Shown in pieces: positions 545-23,222 of a stretch of 23,890 bases of DNA. Location of the stretch: the NCBI RefSeq assembly GCF_028618695.1, contig NZ_JAQIVI010000366.1, positions 1 to 23,890 on the forward strand. Reading direction: 5' to 3'. The stretch is from Natrinema soli. GTDB lineage: Archaea; Halobacteriota; Halobacteria; Halobacteriales; Natrialbaceae. The notes under the pieces are model-generated. The model was not told the DNA's origin. It did not search any database and saw nothing but the letters and a program-made list of their open reading frames with translations. The position numbers and the translations under genes were made by a program. How positions within the stretch are numbered: position 1 is the stretch's first letter; each line of letters starts with the position of its first letter.

Positions 545-606
545 CGCGGTGTTTCTGGCAGTGACTTCGCTCGAACGTCCGTCCGCCGGTTCTCGTACCC
601 GATCGA

Positions 607-729
607 CCACCCACCGCTGGGTGGGACTGAAAGGGGCTGACGGGGTCGGGGAAGACGGGCGACGCAAGCACTGTCCGAACGGAGTGAGGACAGCGCGCAG
701 CGAGCCCCTCGACCCCGTCAGGGGCTTTC
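607..729 (+). repeat. Structured interspersed repeat, copy A
   Basis: This copy is nearly identical to the reverse complement of 4003-4126, except in two arms. The visible order is a hairpin CCACCC/GGGTGG (607-624), the conserved string GACTGAAAGGGGCT, a variable 5' arm at 639-650 (GACGGGGTCGGG), and a conserved block containing hairpin CTGTCC/GGACAG (671-676 with 688-693). It ends with a variable 3' arm at 710-719 (CGACCCCGTC) and AGGGGCTTTC. The two variable arms pair with each other, and they do so in copy B too, with different sequence. It lies between two divergent genes and upstream of the cysteine synthase promoter. Candidate structured RNA or mobile repeat; no function can be assigned. 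Frames through it give Cys/Arg-rich peptides that I regard as spurious. Confidence 0.8.
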
Positions 730-814
730 TGGGTAGTTGCGGGTCTGAAACGCGCGTCGTGGGAGGAACCGCGACCGACGACTAGCCGGCACGTCCTGCC
801 TGAGTCCAGTACGG

Positions 815-820
815 GTTTAC
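815..820 (+). promoter_or_regulatory. TATA-like box of cysteine synthase gene
   Basis: GTTTAC sits about 27 nt before the ATG at 845, consistent with a leaderless transcript. Confidence 0.45.
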
Positions 821-844
821 GTCTCGATTCCCTACGAGAGTCCA

Positions 845-1828
845 ATGAAAGGGAGTATCCTGGACACCATCGGTTCGCCGCTCGTCCAGGTCGATTCGCC
901 GGAGGGTGTGACGGTCGCCGCGAAGATCGAATCGTTCAACCCCGGCGGCTCGGCCAAGGACCGGCCGGCCCGCGAGATGATTCGGGCGGCCGAGCGCGAC
1001 GGCCTGATCGAACCTGGCGACTCGCTCGTGGAACCGACCAGCGGCAACACCGGCATCGGCCTCGCTCTCGTCGCCGCCGCCCGCGGCTACGATCTGACGA
1101 TCGTCATGCCGTCGGACAAGTCGAAGGAACGCCGGCGGATCATGGCCGCCTACGGGGCCGACCTCGAGTTAGTCGACGGCGACATGGCCGACGCCCGCTC
1201 TCGTGCCGACGAACTCGAGGCGACGGGCGCGATTCAACTCGGCCAGTTCGAGAACCCGGCCAACCCCGACGCGCACTACAAGACGACCGGCGAGGAGATC
1301 ATCGAGCAGGTCGGCGACCGCGAGATCGACGCCTTCGTGGCCGGCGTCGGCACCGGCGGCACGATCTCGGGAACCGGCCGCCGGCTCCGCGAGGAGTTCC
1401 CCGAGATGGATATCGTCGCCGTCGAGCCGGACAGAAACGCCGTCCTCTCGACCGGCGAGGCCGGCACCGACGAGTTCCAGGGAATGGGTCCCGGGTTCAT
1501 CAGCACCAATCTCGATCTCGATCTGCTCGACCGCGTCGAGACCGTCAAACTCGAGGACGCCGAGGACGAGTGCCGCCGTCTCGCACGCGAGGAAGGCGTC
1601 CTCGTGGGCCAGTCCAGCGGCGCGACGAGTCTCGTCTCCCAGCGCGTCGCTCGAGAGATCGCCGATCCCAGCGTCGACTGTCCCGAGGTGCCGACCGCGT
1701 TCGACGACGGCGGCGAGCCGGCTTCGCCCGAGACCGACGGCGGTCGAGCGGCCGAGGACTGTCCGCTGGTCGTCACCGTCTTCTGGGACAGCGGCGAGCG
1801 CTACCTCTCGACCGGCCTCTTCGACTGA
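845..1828 (+). CDS. cysK: PLP-dependent cysteine synthase (CysK/CysM family)
   Basis: Encodes 327 residues. The family makes L-cysteine from O-acetylserine (or O-phosphoserine in some archaea) and sulfide, using PLP in the cytoplasm. Visible motifs are the PLP lysine loop PGGSAKDR (Lys38), the substrate loop PTSGNTG (64-70) and the phosphate-binding loop GTGGT (169-173). Further on are GMGPGF (213-218), VGQSSGA with the ring-nitrogen serine (254-260), and the C-terminal signature DSGERYLST (315-323). An acidic, Gly-rich insert at about 275-305 interrupts the usual C-terminal region and is probably a surface loop. The start is supported by the upstream TATA-like box. Whether the acyl donor is O-acetyl- or O-phosphoserine cannot be read from sequence. 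It is transcribed alone, divergent from the thioredoxin-like gene. Confidence 0.9.
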   Translation: MKGSILDTIGSPLVQVDSPEGVTVAAKIESFNPGGSAKDRPAREMIRAAERDGLIEPGDSLVEPTSGNTGIGLALVAAARGYDLTIVMPSDKSKERRRIMAAYGADLELVDGDMADARSRADELEATGAIQLGQFENPANPDAHYKTTGEEIIEQVGDREIDAFVAGVGTGGTISGTGRRLREEFPEMDIVAVEPDRNAVLSTGEAGTDEFQGMGPGFISTNLDLDLLDRVETVKLEDAEDECRRLAREEGVLVGQSSGATSLVSQRVAREIADPSVDCPEVPTAFDDGGEPASPETDGGRAAEDCPLVVTVFWDSGERYLSTGLFD

Positions 1829-1897
1829 GCGGGGAGCGGGCGAGACGCTCGAGGAATCGCATCTAACGAAAAGAGTCCTTTCACCTAGCCGAACCGC

Positions 1898-1903
1898 CTT
1901 TAC
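1898..1903 (+). promoter_or_regulatory. TATA-like box of the lipoprotein gene
   Basis: CTTTAC is centred about 27 nt before the ATG at 1927. Confidence 0.4.
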
Positions 1904-1926
1904 CCCCCGTTCGTACGGTAGTTACG

Positions 1927-2697
1927 ATGACACGTCCCTCCAGACGGACATTATTAGGTAGCACTGCGACGCTGATCGGTCTCTCGGCGGGCTGTATTGC
2001 CGACGGCTCCGAGAGCCCGTCCGACGACGATGACGATCGGAGCGACGCCGATGAGGGCTCGCCGGCTCCTGACGGTAACGAGAGCGACCCCGAGTCGGTC
2101 GGCGAGGACGGAGAGATCGAGGATCTCCCGGACGGTGTGGCCGATTACCGGACGCTACCCTACCAGTACGGTTCGTCGTCGGCGGAGTCCGACGTGGGGC
2201 TCCTCCGGGACGCCGACGACGCCGCGAACTGGCTCGAGGAGCGATTCCCGTCCGACACGGAGCCGCTCGACGAGTTCGTCGACGAGACCGATTTCGAGAC
2301 GTCGATCCTCGTGTCGCTCGAGTCCAACGCGCCCACTCCGTGTTACGAGATGGTCCTCGAGTCCATCGATATCGTCGAGAGCGACGGTGAGGAGGACACC
2401 GGGACCGACGGCGACGACGAAAGCGACGAGGGAGGTGACGATGACGGTACCGACGAACTCGTCCTCGAGGCGGCGGTCCGAGACACGTCGGCCGAGGACG
2501 ATGTCTGTGTCCAGTCGATCGCGACCGTCGGCCGTCTGGTTCGGGTAACCTTCGAGTCGGAGCCGCTGACGACCATCTCGGCGACCATCGTCGGTCACGA
2601 CGGCAGTACCACGACCGTCTCGATGGCCAGCGACAGTGCGTCCGCGTCCGAGAGCACGAGTACTGATTCGGAATCAGGCCGCGGTAGCGATAGCTAA
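1927..2697 (+). CDS. Tat-exported haloarchaeal lipoprotein, function unknown
   Basis: Encodes 256 residues. The N-terminus has a twin-arginine motif (SRRTLLG, Arg6-Arg7), a short hydrophobic stretch and a lipobox ending LSAGC (Cys23). The protein is therefore probably exported folded by Tat and lipid-anchored outside the cell membrane. Residues 24-70 form a disordered Asp/Ser/Glu linker, followed by a more ordered region of about 90-230. That region is interrupted by a second acidic run near 155-175 (EEDTGTDGDD) and the protein ends in a Ser-rich tail. Two cysteines in the ordered part (PTPCYEM and DDVCVQ) could form a disulfide. I recognise no catalytic motif. A T-rich stretch follows the stop. 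Confidence 0.75.
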   Translation: MTRPSRRTLLGSTATLIGLSAGCIADGSESPSDDDDDRSDADEGSPAPDGNESDPESVGEDGEIEDLPDGVADYRTLPYQYGSSSAESDVGLLRDADDAANWLEERFPSDTEPLDEFVDETDFETSILVSLESNAPTPCYEMVLESIDIVESDGEEDTGTDGDDESDEGGDDDGTDELVLEAAVRDTSAEDDVCVQSIATVGRLVRVTFESEPLTTISATIVGHDGSTTTVSMASDSASASESTSTDSESGRGSDS

Positions 2698-2722
2698 CCC
2701 GCCAACAGTAGTGAGTGATACA

Positions 2723-2737
2723 GTTTCTTTATTTATA
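2723..2737 (+). terminator. T-rich terminator candidate after the lipoprotein
   Basis: TTTCTTTATTTAT begins about 26 bases past the stop. Archaeal termination commonly occurs at such T-rich tracts without a hairpin. It is also the entry into a markedly AT-rich intergenic stretch. Confidence 0.4.
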
Positions 2738-2923
2738 ACTGGGTGAGAAATAAAAATACGGGTTTAGTAACCACAGATGCGAACTTACCGCTGTAACTTC
2801 TGTCTGATGGCAATATAATTGTGAGAATCGTGCTAGATACAGAGCGCATATGTTTCGACTATTGGATTCTGGAGACCACGGTGACTATGGGTGTGGAGGA
2901 GTCCGTGCCCGCCTGAGTGTGAA

Positions 2924-3109
2924 CTACTGTGAATCCACAGATCGTTCGAGAGTTTTGAGACCAAGATAGACGACTGCTCCTACGAAAAGACCCTCTATAG
3001 CTGCGTTCACCACGACAGATTTGATGAAAGTTAGCTGTATTAATTGAGTGACTGCTGTACCAAGAGCCGCAAAAATGCCGGCGGCAAACGCAAATTTGAG
3101 CCTAACCAT
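2924..3109 (-). CDS. Small two-helix membrane protein
   Basis: Encodes 61 residues from the ATG at 3109. The frame extends upstream to 3163, but that extension is Asn/His/Tyr-rich and lies upstream of an AT-rich promoter-like sequence (TATTTATGG on the plus strand, 3127-3136) about 22-25 nt before the ATG at 3109. I therefore prefer the shorter form. Two hydrophobic stretches, FAFAAGIFAALGTAV and VNAAIEGLFVGAVVYLGL, suggest two transmembrane helices joined by a short loop, with a basic N-terminus and a charged tail. No family is recognised. Codon use is more AT-rich than in neighbours, fitting the surrounding low-GC patch. It could be spurious, but the hydrophobic pattern argues for a real protein. 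Confidence 0.5.
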   Translation of the reverse strand: MVRLKFAFAAGIFAALGTAVTQLIQLTFIKSVVVNAAIEGLFVGAVVYLGLKTLERSVDSQ

Positions 3110-3280
3110 ATTATTGTTAGAAAATACATATTTATGGCTGTTTCGGTGGTAGATAGAACTCATTATATTTCCCGTACTGAATACCCCCTCTGTACTGGGT
3201 GGAATTTTTCATGGATATCTCTGCATAAACAATCTGTGCTACTATCTACTGGTGACGGCTCGTGGCAATTCGAGAAACGC

Positions 3281-3895
3281 TTACGGAGAGTATTCGGCTT
3301 CGGTCAGACGGACGACGAGGGTGTCCTCGACGTCCCTGAGATCGTACTCGGGGAGTTCGCCACCGGTCCGGCGCACGTACAGCGGTTCGACGAGCCGATG
3401 GGTCGGCTCGGCGGCCCTCGCTCGATCGGCTTCGCTCGAGTCGTCCGCATCGTCGTCTCCCTGACGTTTGTCCCCGTTGGCAGCGTCGCTCGTCCCGGTC
3501 GAGTCGGGACCCGAACTCGCGTCCGTTGCGTCGTCGGCAGTCGCGTCGGCTCCCGCGTCGATCCGCTCGAGGCCGTAGATCTTGCAGAACTCGGCCGTTT
3601 CCGCCGACTCGATCTCGCCGTTTCGGAGCCGTTCGGCCAGCGGTCGCGAGAGCCACTCCGCGTCGCTGATACTGGGCTCCTGGACGAGTGCCTCGTCGAC
3701 GAACCGCGTGAGATACCAGTTGAGATCGTTCAACAGTGAGACGGCAGCGCCGACGCTGACCGTCCGGACGGCGAGCGAGTTCTCGAACGGCCGCTCGAGG
3801 TCGTACGTCGCGAGGGCCTCGCGGGACGTCTCTCGGGAAAGCAGTTCGTACTGGAGATTGCTCCCGGCCTCGCCGACGAGACAGACGCGGGTCAC
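3281..3895 (-). CDS. Haloarchaea-specific conserved protein (DUF5804-like)
   Basis: Encodes 204 residues with a GTG start at 3895, and ATTACA lies about 26 nt upstream. The N-terminal part (1-112) has features such as YELLSRETSREAL, NSLAVRTVSVG and LLNDLNWYLTRFVDEAL. The C-terminal part (166-204) reads LVEPLYVRRTGGE and EYDLRDVEDTLVVRL. Together they look like one compact domain I associate, from memory, with the haloarchaeal family DUF5804. The two halves are separated by about 50 residues of Asp/Ala/Ser-rich low complexity (about 114-165), probably a disordered insertion. No catalytic motif, membrane segment or signal peptide is seen and the function is unknown. It lies upstream of the AT-rich patch and downstream of repeat copy B. 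Confidence 0.7.
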   Translation of the reverse strand: MTRVCLVGEAGSNLQYELLSRETSREALATYDLERPFENSLAVRTVSVGAAVSLLNDLNWYLTRFVDEALVQEPSISDAEWLSRPLAERLRNGEIESAETAEFCKIYGLERIDAGADATADDATDASSGPDSTGTSDAANGDKRQGDDDADDSSEADRARAAEPTHRLVEPLYVRRTGGELPEYDLRDVEDTLVVRLTEAEYSP

Positions 3896-4002
3896 TATAT
3901 TGTGGTGGGTGCGACGGTGTAATGTCGGTTTCGGCTTCTAGACGAGTTTCTCGGAACGTTCCACATTCGAAACGCGGATTCCGTTGCGACGACAGCGATG
4001 AT

Positions 4003-4126
4003 GAAAGCCCCTGGCTCTCTCGAGTCGAGGGGCTCGCTGCGCGCTGTCCTCACTCCGTTCGGACAGTGCTTGCGTCGCCCGTCTTCCTCGAGAGAGCCAG
4101 CCCCTTTCAGTCCCACCCGGCGGTGG
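4003..4126 (-). repeat. Structured interspersed repeat, copy B (inverted)
   Basis: Read on the minus strand it matches copy A (607-729) over the hairpin CCACC/GGTGG, GACTGAAAGGGGCT, the central block with CTGTCC/GGACAG, and AGGGGCTTTC. The variable arms differ completely from copy A. They are GGCTCTCTCGAG and CTCGAGAGAGCC (4087-4098 and 4013-4024), which pair over 12 bp without mismatch. It lies between the 3' end of thiI and the next minus-strand gene, so it could be transcribed as part of the thiI 3' region or independently. The opposite orientation to copy A is compatible with a dispersed element. Confidence 0.8.
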
Positions 4127-20926: not shown

Positions 20927-21080
20927 GGCAGCGGGATCGGCGTCGAATCAGACACGGGGCGATTCGATCCGTTTCAGTCTTGAGTGCTCGGAGAGTTTTC
21001 GCTCCGACGCTGGCTGAGATCCGTCTCCGTGTCGATTCGGGATCGGTTTTGCCGCTTGCGAATTTGCTCGCGGCGAGAAG

Positions 21081-21101
21081 CGGGCCGGGCGCGATTTGAA
21101 C
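21081..21101 (-). repeat. tRNA-Lys 3'-end copy 1
   Basis: Exact 21-nt match to the T-loop, 3' T-stem strand, 3' acceptor strand and discriminator base of the intact tRNA-Lys at 21521-21541. The matching AAG just outside is also kept. The 5' three quarters of a tRNA are absent. Confidence 0.85.
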
Positions 21102-21203
21102 GACGTGAAGACGGTCGCTCGCTCCGCTCGCGCTGCGCTGCGACTTCTCTACTTCAAATCGCTCTGTCCGTTTCGCTCCTCACGAAATTGTTCGTCGCAA
21201 AAG

Positions 21204-21224
21204 CGGGCCGGGCGCGATTTGAAC
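21204..21224 (-). repeat. tRNA-Lys 3'-end copy 2
   Basis: Exact 21-nt match to the same tRNA-Lys 3' segment, 123 bp from copy 1, in the same orientation. Confidence 0.85.
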
Positions 21225-21400
21225 CTGCCCGAGAACCTGCTCACTCCGTTCGCAGGACCTCGGTCTGCTTCAGATTCCGACCGCAGGAGGAATCTGAACA
21301 CACGGTCGGACGTGCTCACTCCGTTGCGCGCGACCTCCCTGCGTTCAAATCCCGCCGGTTCCGTTGCTATCGGCTCACGGAATTGTTCGCCGACAGAAAG

Positions 21401-21421
21401 CGGGCCGGGCGCGATTTGAAC
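21401..21421 (-). repeat. tRNA-Lys 3'-end copy 3
   Basis: Exact 21-nt match, 197 bp from copy 2 and 120 bp from the intact tRNA. The 197-bp unit before it contains an extra nested pair CTTCAGATTC/GAATCTGAAC, suggesting two fused sub-units. Confidence 0.85.
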
Positions 21422-21520
21422 ACACGGTCACACGATCGCTCGCTCCGCTCGCGCTGCGTGTTCCCTGCGATTCAAATCGCGGTCGCCGCTTTGCTCGTCA
21501 CGAATTGTTCCTCGCAGAAG

Positions 21521-21594
21521 CGGGCCGGGCGCGATTTGAACACGCGACCGTCTGATTAAGAGTCAGACGCTCTGCCGGACTGAGCTACCGGCCC
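21521..21594 (-). tRNA. tRNA-Lys, anticodon CTT
   Basis: On the minus strand, 74 nt fold into a full cloverleaf. The acceptor is GGGCCGG with CCGGCCC, the D-arm is GCTC...GAGC, and the anticodon stem TCTGA/TCAGA encloses loop CTCTTAA (anticodon CTT). The T-arm is GCGTG-TTCAAAT-CGCGC and the discriminator is G. CCA is not encoded. No intron is present. This is the intact member of the array that lies immediately 3' of it. Confidence 0.95.
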
Positions 21595-21761: not shown

Positions 21762-23222
21762 ATGAGTACGGGGGTTACGATTTCGTCGATCTCTGACTAC
21801 GCTATCTTGGGATGTGGGAGCGTGGGCTACGCCGTCGCGGAGGAACTCGTCGAACAGGGGAAGGACGTCTTCATCGTCGATCAGGACGAGAGCCGCGTCG
21901 AATCGCTCCGCGACCAGGACCTGGACGCCCGGACGGCCGACATCCGCGAATCCGGCGTCGCCGACCTCGTGGCCGACCGCGATGTCGTCCTCATCCTCGC
22001 CTCGGACGTCGAGTCCAACAAGCGCGCCGTCGAACACATCCGCGAGAGCGACGGCGACCAGTTCATCGTCGCCCGCGCGAGCGATCCCGTCTCCGGCGAC
22101 GAACTCTCCGAACTCGGGGCCGACATCGTCATCAACCCCTCCACGGTCATCGCCGAATCCGCCCTGCGCGCCCTCGAGTCGGGCGAGCTCGAGTACAATG
22201 CGGGGAAGCTCGCCGATATCGTCGAGCAGACGGCGACGCGGCTGGCGATCGTCACCCAGGACAGCCCGGATCCGGACTCGATCGCCAGCGCGGCGGCGCT
22301 GCAAGCGATCGCCGAGCATCTCGGCATCGAATCCGACATCATCTATCTCGGGGACGTCGGCCACCAGGAGAACCGAGCGTTCGTCAATCTGCTCGGGATC
22401 GACCTCGTCCAGTGGGACGAGATCGAGGACCACTCGATCTACGACACCGTGTCCCTGGTCGATCACGCGACCTCGGGCGAGATGGACCTCCCGATCGACA
22501 TCGTCATCGATCACCACGAATCCGAGACCGGGGACGGGGTCGAACCCGAGTTCGTCGACATCCGACCGAACATGTCCTCGACGTCGACGATCATGACGAA
22601 GTACATTCAGGAGTTCGACATGAACGTCTCCGAGGAGGTCGCCACGGCCCTGCTCTACGGCATCCGGGCGGAGACGCTGGATTTCAAACGCGACACGACT
22701 CCCGCCGATCTGACCGCCGCCGCCTACCTCTATCCGTTCGCCAACCACGACACGTTAGAGCAGGTCGAGTCGCCGTCGATGTCCCCCGAGACGCTGGACG
22801 TGCTCGCGGAGGCCATCACCAATCGCGACGTCCAGGGGAGTCACCTCGTCTCCAACGCGGGCTTCGTCCGCGACCGCGAGGCGCTCACGCAAGCCGCCAG
22901 CCACCTGCTCAATCTGGAGGGCGTCACCACGACCGCCGTCTTCGGGATCGCCGACGAGACGATCTTCCTCGCCGGTCGCTCGAAGGACATCCGCATCAAC
23001 ATCGGCAAAGTGCTCGACGACGCCTACGGCGAGATCGGCGAGACGGCCGGCCACTCCACGCAGGCCAGCGCGGAGATCCCGCTGGGGATCTTCACCGGAA
23101 TCGAGATCTCGGAGGACACGCGGGAGACGCTACTCGAGTTGACCGAGGAAGCGGTCAAGCGGACGCTGTTCGACGCGATGGGTGTCGAAGGAGGGAGCAG
23201 CGAGGGCTCGAACGGGAGCTGA
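21762..23222 (+). CDS. TrkA-N / DHH / DHHA1 phosphoesterase-like protein
   Basis: Encodes 486 residues. The N-terminal RCK/TrkA-N Rossmann domain has GCGSVG (17-22 region) and acid Asp40 in VFIVDQD, so NAD-type nucleotide binding is likely. It is followed by a DHH phosphoesterase domain with metal ligands in SPDPDSIAS (168-176), DH (234-235) and the DHH triad IDHHES (249-254). A C-terminal DHHA1 domain contains GRSKDIRINIG and GHSTQASAEIPLG. Relatives hydrolyse short oligonucleotides, cyclic dinucleotides or pyrophosphate-like substrates with Mn2+. The archaeal fusion suggests activity gated by a nucleotide or by K+ transport state. Candidate cyclic-di-AMP phosphodiesterase, unproven. The ATG at 21762 gives a leaderless transcript. 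Confidence 0.88.
   Translation: MSTGVTISSISDYAILGCGSVGYAVAEELVEQGKDVFIVDQDESRVESLRDQDLDARTADIRESGVADLVADRDVVLILASDVESNKRAVEHIRESDGDQFIVARASDPVSGDELSELGADIVINPSTVIAESALRALESGELEYNAGKLADIVEQTATRLAIVTQDSPDPDSIASAAALQAIAEHLGIESDIIYLGDVGHQENRAFVNLLGIDLVQWDEIEDHSIYDTVSLVDHATSGEMDLPIDIVIDHHESETGDGVEPEFVDIRPNMSSTSTIMTKYIQEFDMNVSEEVATALLYGIRAETLDFKRDTTPADLTAAAYLYPFANHDTLEQVESPSMSPETLDVLAEAITNRDVQGSHLVSNAGFVRDREALTQAASHLLNLEGVTTTAVFGIADETIFLAGRSKDIRINIGKVLDDAYGEIGETAGHSTQASAEIPLGIFTGIEISEDTRETLLELTEEAVKRTLFDAMGVEGGSSEGSNGS

Follow-up and report, generated by a model that had tools for sequence, protein, structure and literature searches.

Two inverted copies of a hairpin module lie in a 23,890-nt stretch of the Natrinema soli genome (contig NZ_JAQIVI010000366.1 of assembly GCF_028618695.1, positions 1 to 23,890; 'the window' below): copy A at 623..729 on the plus strand and copy B at 4003..4114 on the minus strand. 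On balance, A and B are probably old, independent insertions of miniature inverted-repeat transposable elements (MITEs) of IS6 type that occur throughout the haloarchaea, with the module having been kept by the fold of one strand, most likely as RNA. The module opens with a conserved box (HEAD), continues with a 12-bp stem whose sequence varies freely, internal loops that are conserved and short stems in the core, and ends in a closing segment (TAIL). In A, B and their orthologues the transposon ends are unrecognizable, yet the module often keeps its pairing while the letters of its arms turn over. The loci and genomes compared are referred to by L and G numbers.

Copies A and B in the window

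A repeat search gave 611-713 against 4024-4126 as the longest inverted repeat of the window (103 nt, 93% complementary), the runner-up reaching only 47 nt at 74%. The near-identical inverted copies described in the first-pass annotation, which was made from the letters of the window alone, were thereby borne out, and its claim that the arms are unrelated between the copies and complementary within each was also upheld. In copy A, the left arm TGACGGGGTCGG (638..649, plus strand), which is the variable stem, and the right arm TCGACCCCGTCA (709..720, plus strand) form 11 Watson-Crick pairs and one G.U pair over 12 pairs; in copy B, TGGCTCTCTCGA (4088..4099, minus strand) and TCGAGAGAGCCA (4012..4023, minus strand) form 12 Watson-Crick pairs out of 12. 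The order of parts common to both copies is HEAD GGGACTGAAAGGGGC, arm, inner part, arm and TAIL GGGGCTTTC. The HEAD, the conserved 5' box of the family, occupies 623..637 (plus) in A and 4100..4114 (minus) in B, and the TAIL, whose AAAG/CTTT closing pairs with a GGG/GGG internal loop belong to helix 1 of the pair counts, occupies 721..729 (plus) and 4003..4011 (minus). The inner part (650..708, plus, in A; 4024..4087, minus, in B) is the same in both copies apart from 5 nt absent from A before the right arm, and the modules are 107 and 112 nt long. In A, this part comprises a GAA/GA internal loop, a covarying dinucleotide pair and a short stem, as judged from the family alignment (the loops by eye) and pair counts, and its core reads GACGCAAGCAC ... 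GCGCAGCGAG. A leader hairpin (CCACC..GGGTGG, 605..622, plus, by sequence reading) precedes the HEAD of copy A; it is also found upstream of A and B orthologues, and it forms the left limit of the sequence common to A, B and their orthologues.

In folding, each copy outperforms every one of its 200 dinucleotide shuffles (z -4.83 for A and -5.64 for B). At the gathering threshold, Rfam returned zero matches for the element, and around A it gave just three sub-threshold microRNA matches; across the window, the one feature detected by Rfam and the tRNA finder is a tRNA-Lys gene (21520-21594). The fourth of four repeat copies with AGCGGGCCGGGCGCGATTTGAAC, which resemble a tRNA 3'-half fragment and lie at 21063-21541, overlaps this gene. 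The gene adjoining copy B (3281-3895, minus, the strand of thiI) encodes a DUF5804 protein (PF19120, E 3.6e-53).

The two copies are separate insertions and form no unit. Genes lie between them, and genome G015 has B (L185) but just a remnant at A (L164). A composite transposon bounded by A and B was therefore rejected, since in relatives one copy can occur without the other. A guide function for the arm sequences was also discarded, as the tested A and B arm words have no match in the window outside the copies, bar one 10-mer at 22533.

Covariation of the arms and conserved structure

The compensatory arm change first seen between A and B holds across the family and between orthologous sites. 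After removal of 30 matches without a TAIL and 39 off the main length, 167 HEAD matches from 144 loci left 98 copies, 93 of them distinct. At arm positions 1-11, 87-96% of these copies show pairing, a share that falls to 32-61% if the left arm of one copy is set against the right arm of another. In a 60-row alignment, 93.4% of the cells hold pairing letters, vs 73.0 (standard deviation 0.7) after shuffling and at most 45.8 with the partner slid, and double changes occur at 23 of the 30 pairs. As read from the alignment, conservation covers both ends, the GGG/GGG internal loop that separates AAAG/CTTT from the arm, the GAA/GA loop after the arm and a core GACGYAAGCAC ... GCRCAGCGAG. After the GAA/GA loop comes a dinucleotide pair (columns 34-35 and 114-115) that covaries freely.

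Two motifs that the first-pass annotation had called conserved turned out to be local. Among 142 distinct copies with at least 8 of 12 positions paired (G.U accepted, A.C not), the CTGTCC/GGACAG hairpin is found in 5 and AGCCCCT in 7. The alternative folds, or fold switch, proposed to act through AGCCCCT were rejected on that count.

Cysteine synthase and ThiI served as anchors for comparing sites A and B across 29 genomes of the genus, the counts being made by eye. The element is present at site A in 7 genomes, together with an internally deleted one in L160, and at site B in 10; it is absent from site A in L161, L166 and L156, for example. At site B, six distinct arm sets (the window, L181, L184, L187, L189 and L191) pair at 10-12 of 12 positions, L185 and L186 share the left arm of the window with 11 of 12 paired, and L182, L183 and L190 carry left-arm insertions that make them unreadable in register (4-5 of 12). 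A single pair, changed and compensated, distinguishes L189 from L191. At site A, the window, L151, L153, L154, L155 and L159 pair at 10-11 of 12; between the window and L154, 5 of 12 arm pairs have changed and all five changes are compensated. L152 has an insertion (7 of 12) and L165 a decayed tail (2 of 12 in this register), and scars such as GGGACTGAAAGGGGCTTTC occur in other genomes (L200 and L196, one difference each). Loss of arm complementarity in other copies, which the first-pass annotation had named as an outcome that would refute its reading, was largely not observed, although some orthologous copies are decayed, interrupted or deleted (L165, L152, L160, L196, L200). The intergenic region upstream of the cysteine synthase orthologue in L170 holds a different inverted pair, TATAGTAGCTGCTGAAACG ... 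TTTCAGCGGCTACTATAG, and so may accept several mobile repeats.

Possible selection on the HEAD-to-TAIL strand or copying of the arms

In 169 distinct arm pairs, for which at least 8 of 11 positions had to be paired with both G.U and A.C accepted, 1859 pairs divide into 1702 Watson-Crick, 66 G.U, 23 A.C and 68 others. The excess of G.U over A.C (p 6e-6, without phylogenetic weighting) stands at 51 to 15 in solo copies. Since G.U and A.C mirror each other on the two strands, the HEAD-to-TAIL strand is special, either via selection on its fold or via strand-biased mutation. This excess agrees with a single-stranded fold on the strand read at first pass, where selection on an RNA stem or a cruciform was suggested; the kept structure may act as RNA or as single-stranded DNA, or may be upheld only by the copying of one arm from the other.

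The chief rival is template switching by the polymerase within the hairpin during replication (quasi-palindrome correction), by which mutations in one arm would be mirrored in the other and the module would be plain transposon debris of no function. The pairing is indeed very clean for an RNA stem, only 68 of the 1859 pairs falling outside the three classes named above. Comparison of the sites further suggests that whole inner parts have been exchanged between them, as in L155 (site A) and L181 (site B), which would also suit copying. However, template copying predicts equal numbers of G.U and A.C, against the 66 and 23 found, and it does not account for the GAA/GA and GGG/GGG loops, which remain unpaired in the alignment; we consider it somewhat unlikely.

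Upkeep of the module at the RNA level, although unproven, is the preferred reading because the conserved letters lie in loops and flanks, the stem is free to vary but remains paired, and G.U is tolerated over A.C. An IS6-type transposase would act in trans on the element ends, as their sequence and the target duplications described below indicate. After insertion the ends would decay, and such ends presumably once existed around A and B; the module would stay behind, its stem letters turning over in matched steps. Folding would be required of the HEAD-to-TAIL strand, in all likelihood at the RNA level within transcripts that are intergenic or untranslated, with loops and flanks being recognized and the stem needing only to pair. 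A stronger version, in which the MITE spreads the module as a haloarchaea-wide mobile structured RNA and the host keeps a functional intergenic RNA after the ends have decayed, is put forward only tentatively.

The mobile form

The suspected mobility of the family is supported in other genomes by IS6-type ends and 8-bp target duplications. IS6 elements generate 8-bp target duplications and have GG tips with cTGTt (PMC7986276). Terminal inverted repeats of this type (GG tip, CTGTT), namely GGTACTGTTTAGATTAG and variants, were found in G260, G311 and loci from metagenome-assembled genomes. Five related copies, each about 377 bp long, are dispersed in genome G260; four share 93-99.7% identity, and the fifth (L275) reaches 77-81%. 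Their layout is terminal inverted repeat, hairpin (minus), 35 bp, hairpin (plus) and terminal inverted repeat, with the ends GGTACTGTTTAGATTAG / CTAAACACTACT. Complete forms hold either one module in about 215 bp (211-219; L134, L112 and L035) or two head to head in about 320-380 bp (321-377).

A systematic count over all collected loci gave 18 distinct elements in which the module is enclosed by the two end motifs. At their best match, the 8-bp flanks agree at 8 of 8 positions in five of them (L282 = L275, L295 = L274, L134, L118, and L259 = L276) and at 7 of 8 in another five (L285, L142, L077, L109 and L112); in a control displaced by 18 bases, 6 of 8 was reached once and 7 or 8 in none of the 18. 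By eye, L035 has a flank match of 7 of 8. The end motif lies 15-50 nt past the TAIL in 14 of the 142 copies (7 of 131 after exclusion of loci that had been retrieved through the motif itself) and in none in each of seven downstream control windows. Matches to the end pattern number 11 in G260, 11 in G106 and 20 in G311, the reversed pattern giving 0 in all three.

G106 has a 692-bp decayed element that lacks the module but is bounded by like ends (GGCACTGTTCAGATTAG / TCTAAACAGTGCC). An open piece within it gave a match to the model NF033587, 'IS6 family transposase' (E 8.4e-10, 38.7 bits). The IS6-type domain PF13610 is present in 28 of the 29 genomes of the window's genus, in 26 of them above the cut-off.

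The second-ranked rival would see in the hairpin a DNA signal, single-stranded or cruciform, for a transposase, recombinase or replication protein. Its logic may be likened to that of REP/BIME repeats, IS200/IS605 ends and integron attC sites, in which the letters vary and the fold is kept. Strand polarity and the irregular, rod-like shape of the hairpin would suit such a signal, as would the head-to-head arrangement, with HEADs just 26-35 bp apart, of 18 close pairs among the 167 HEAD matches in 144 loci, and the scars in L200 and L196 resemble a loss between GGGGC repeats. The mobile form, however, has inverted ends and 8-bp duplications, both of which IS605-type elements and PATEs lack (PMC3119063), and REPs are only 20-40 bp long (PMC3733652). 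A DNA signal is accordingly judged unlikely, more so than template copying.

Distribution of the family

A search of haloarchaeal genomes with a covariance model, the check named in the first-pass annotation, found the family in 226 of 292 genomes and 61 of 76 genera (E up to 1e-5). The model was built from 60 copies. Because scoring was limited to 13 candidates in each genome, these figures count presence and give no copy numbers; with 150 candidates scored and E up to 0.001, three genomes gave 13, 19 and 22 matches. BLAST with copy A yielded matches in 27 of 41 relatives, the nearest genome to the window among those compared being G001. An exact scan for GTGGGACTGAAAGGGGC returned at least 120 stretches (L031-L150). 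Among those listed, 118 are archaeal by title, 'uncultured archaeon A07HN63' being the single one whose name is not haloarchaeal, and two are bacterial (L091 and L114); the 17-base HEAD in these two is taken as chance, as they score 17.4 and 15.2 bits against 110.1 for B and 92.9 for A. Fifteen plasmid records contain a match. Phage records gave zero matches, and a phage origin was rejected for that reason.

The HEAD resembles, in its form GTGGGACTGAAAG, the 3' part of haloarchaeal CRISPR repeats, and this likeness could be counted in favour of a Cas6-processed RNA. Cas6 (PF10040) was found in 30 of 292 genomes, and in a hand tally that assumes the same 292 genomes in both searches, and in which PF10040 may miss some Cas6 forms, the hairpin is present in 18 of the 30 genomes with the domain vs 208 of the 262 without it. 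As the hairpin is common in genomes without PF10040, there is no dependence on Cas6, and such a reading is regarded as very improbable indeed.

The HEAD-to-TAIL distance is mostly 93-119 nt in the main class. Long forms make up 44 of 189 distinct HEAD-to-TAIL stretches (L005, L182, L183, L137, L072, L090 and others), and in 39 of these, perfect mini-hairpins are present, numbering from one to five, a count made without a control. These have stems of at least 6 bp, many of 8-11 bp, and often 3-nt variable loops, as in CGAGAGAGC(nnn)GCTCTCTCG; they are often paired in tandem, in the left arm or by the apical loop, across unrelated genera, and perhaps represent another small repeat that has nested within this one. 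If modules attract other perfect small hairpins in this way, that too would speak for template copying.

Observations that weigh against the proposed reading

Several results weigh against insertion as IS6-type MITEs followed by upkeep as RNA. Concerning transposition, a motif scan and reading of the sequence found neither an IS6-type end motif nor a target duplication at A or B, so that their membership of the family follows from the module by itself. The end motif is missing past the TAIL in 128 of the 142 copies, and 8 of the 18 two-ended elements, including three of the five G260 copies, lack a target duplication of at least 7 matching positions. Among 15 loci around end-pattern matches, 6 have the module and 9 have none, one of the nine being a decayed IS6 element; like ends thus also occur on other elements, chiefly in G106. 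The transposase-like piece of G106 falls below the whole-protein cut-off (125) and has no Pfam match.

On the RNA side, head-to-head pairs on their own give 15 G.U vs 8 A.C, which is not significant (p 0.21), and strand-biased mutation could be the source of the overall G.U excess; the test is also unweighted by phylogeny. No AT-rich box is conserved in the 100 nt upstream of the HEAD in 96 copies, and an autonomous small-RNA gene with its own promoter is thus not supported. Orientation relative to the downstream gene was tandem in 47 cases to 19 before related loci were removed; afterwards (28 of 182 elements removed as homologous, with genes called by a simple script) solo copies stood at 26 of 41, which is not significant (p 0.12), and the orientation bias was dropped. 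The better folding energy of the plus strand is an effect of composition, mononucleotide shuffles differing more than the real sequences, and the strand difference was therefore not retained as evidence for RNA.

Relation to known elements and significance

IS6-type MITEs are already known, and the strictly kept covarying hairpin is the unusual part. The IS6-family MITEs MITEHarch3 and MITEBth2 of ISfinder (named in PMC6807381) likewise have IS6-type ends and no transposase. The two IS6 MITEs listed in PMC7986276 measure 227 and 336 bp, similar in length to the present elements of 211-219 and 321-377 bp. Compared by description rather than by sequence, and within the portions of these sources at hand, they carry no mention of a covarying hairpin module. 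MITEHarch3, haloarchaeal to judge by its name, may, on the same comparison by description, be a member of the present family.

In Haloquadratum walsbyi, MITEs, PATEs and SMRs are transposase-free repeats that are often inserted in each other, and what the MITEs have in common with the transposon mobilizing them is limited to terminal bases (PMC3119063). According to the same excerpt, PATEs have neither terminal inverted repeats nor target duplications and SMRs have no target duplications, and a long covarying hairpin is not described there for any of the three. Identity with a PATE or another IS200/IS605 derivative was rejected, as the mobile copies have terminal inverted repeats and target duplications. 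Bacterial REP/BIME repeats are likewise dispersed, intergenic imperfect palindromes, sometimes in inverted pairs; they measure 20-40 bp, in contrast to the present modules, which are 107 and 112 nt long in the two window copies and elsewhere lie inside an IS6-type MITE. A HEAD-to-TAIL length of mostly 93-119 nt led to rejection of a REP/BIME identity. In searches of one open-licence literature library, no description was found of a covarying, one-strand-biased hairpin that outlives its transposon ends.

If MITEHarch3 proves to be this element, its transposon part has already been catalogued and only the properties of the module would be new. If the module is kept as RNA, it would constitute a very widespread, transposon-spread family of structured RNAs in haloarchaea without a match in Rfam. 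If it is kept by template copying alone, it would provide an unusually clean natural record of the self-maintenance of a palindrome. The orthologous sites, with their exchanged but matched arms, make the question of upkeep directly testable.

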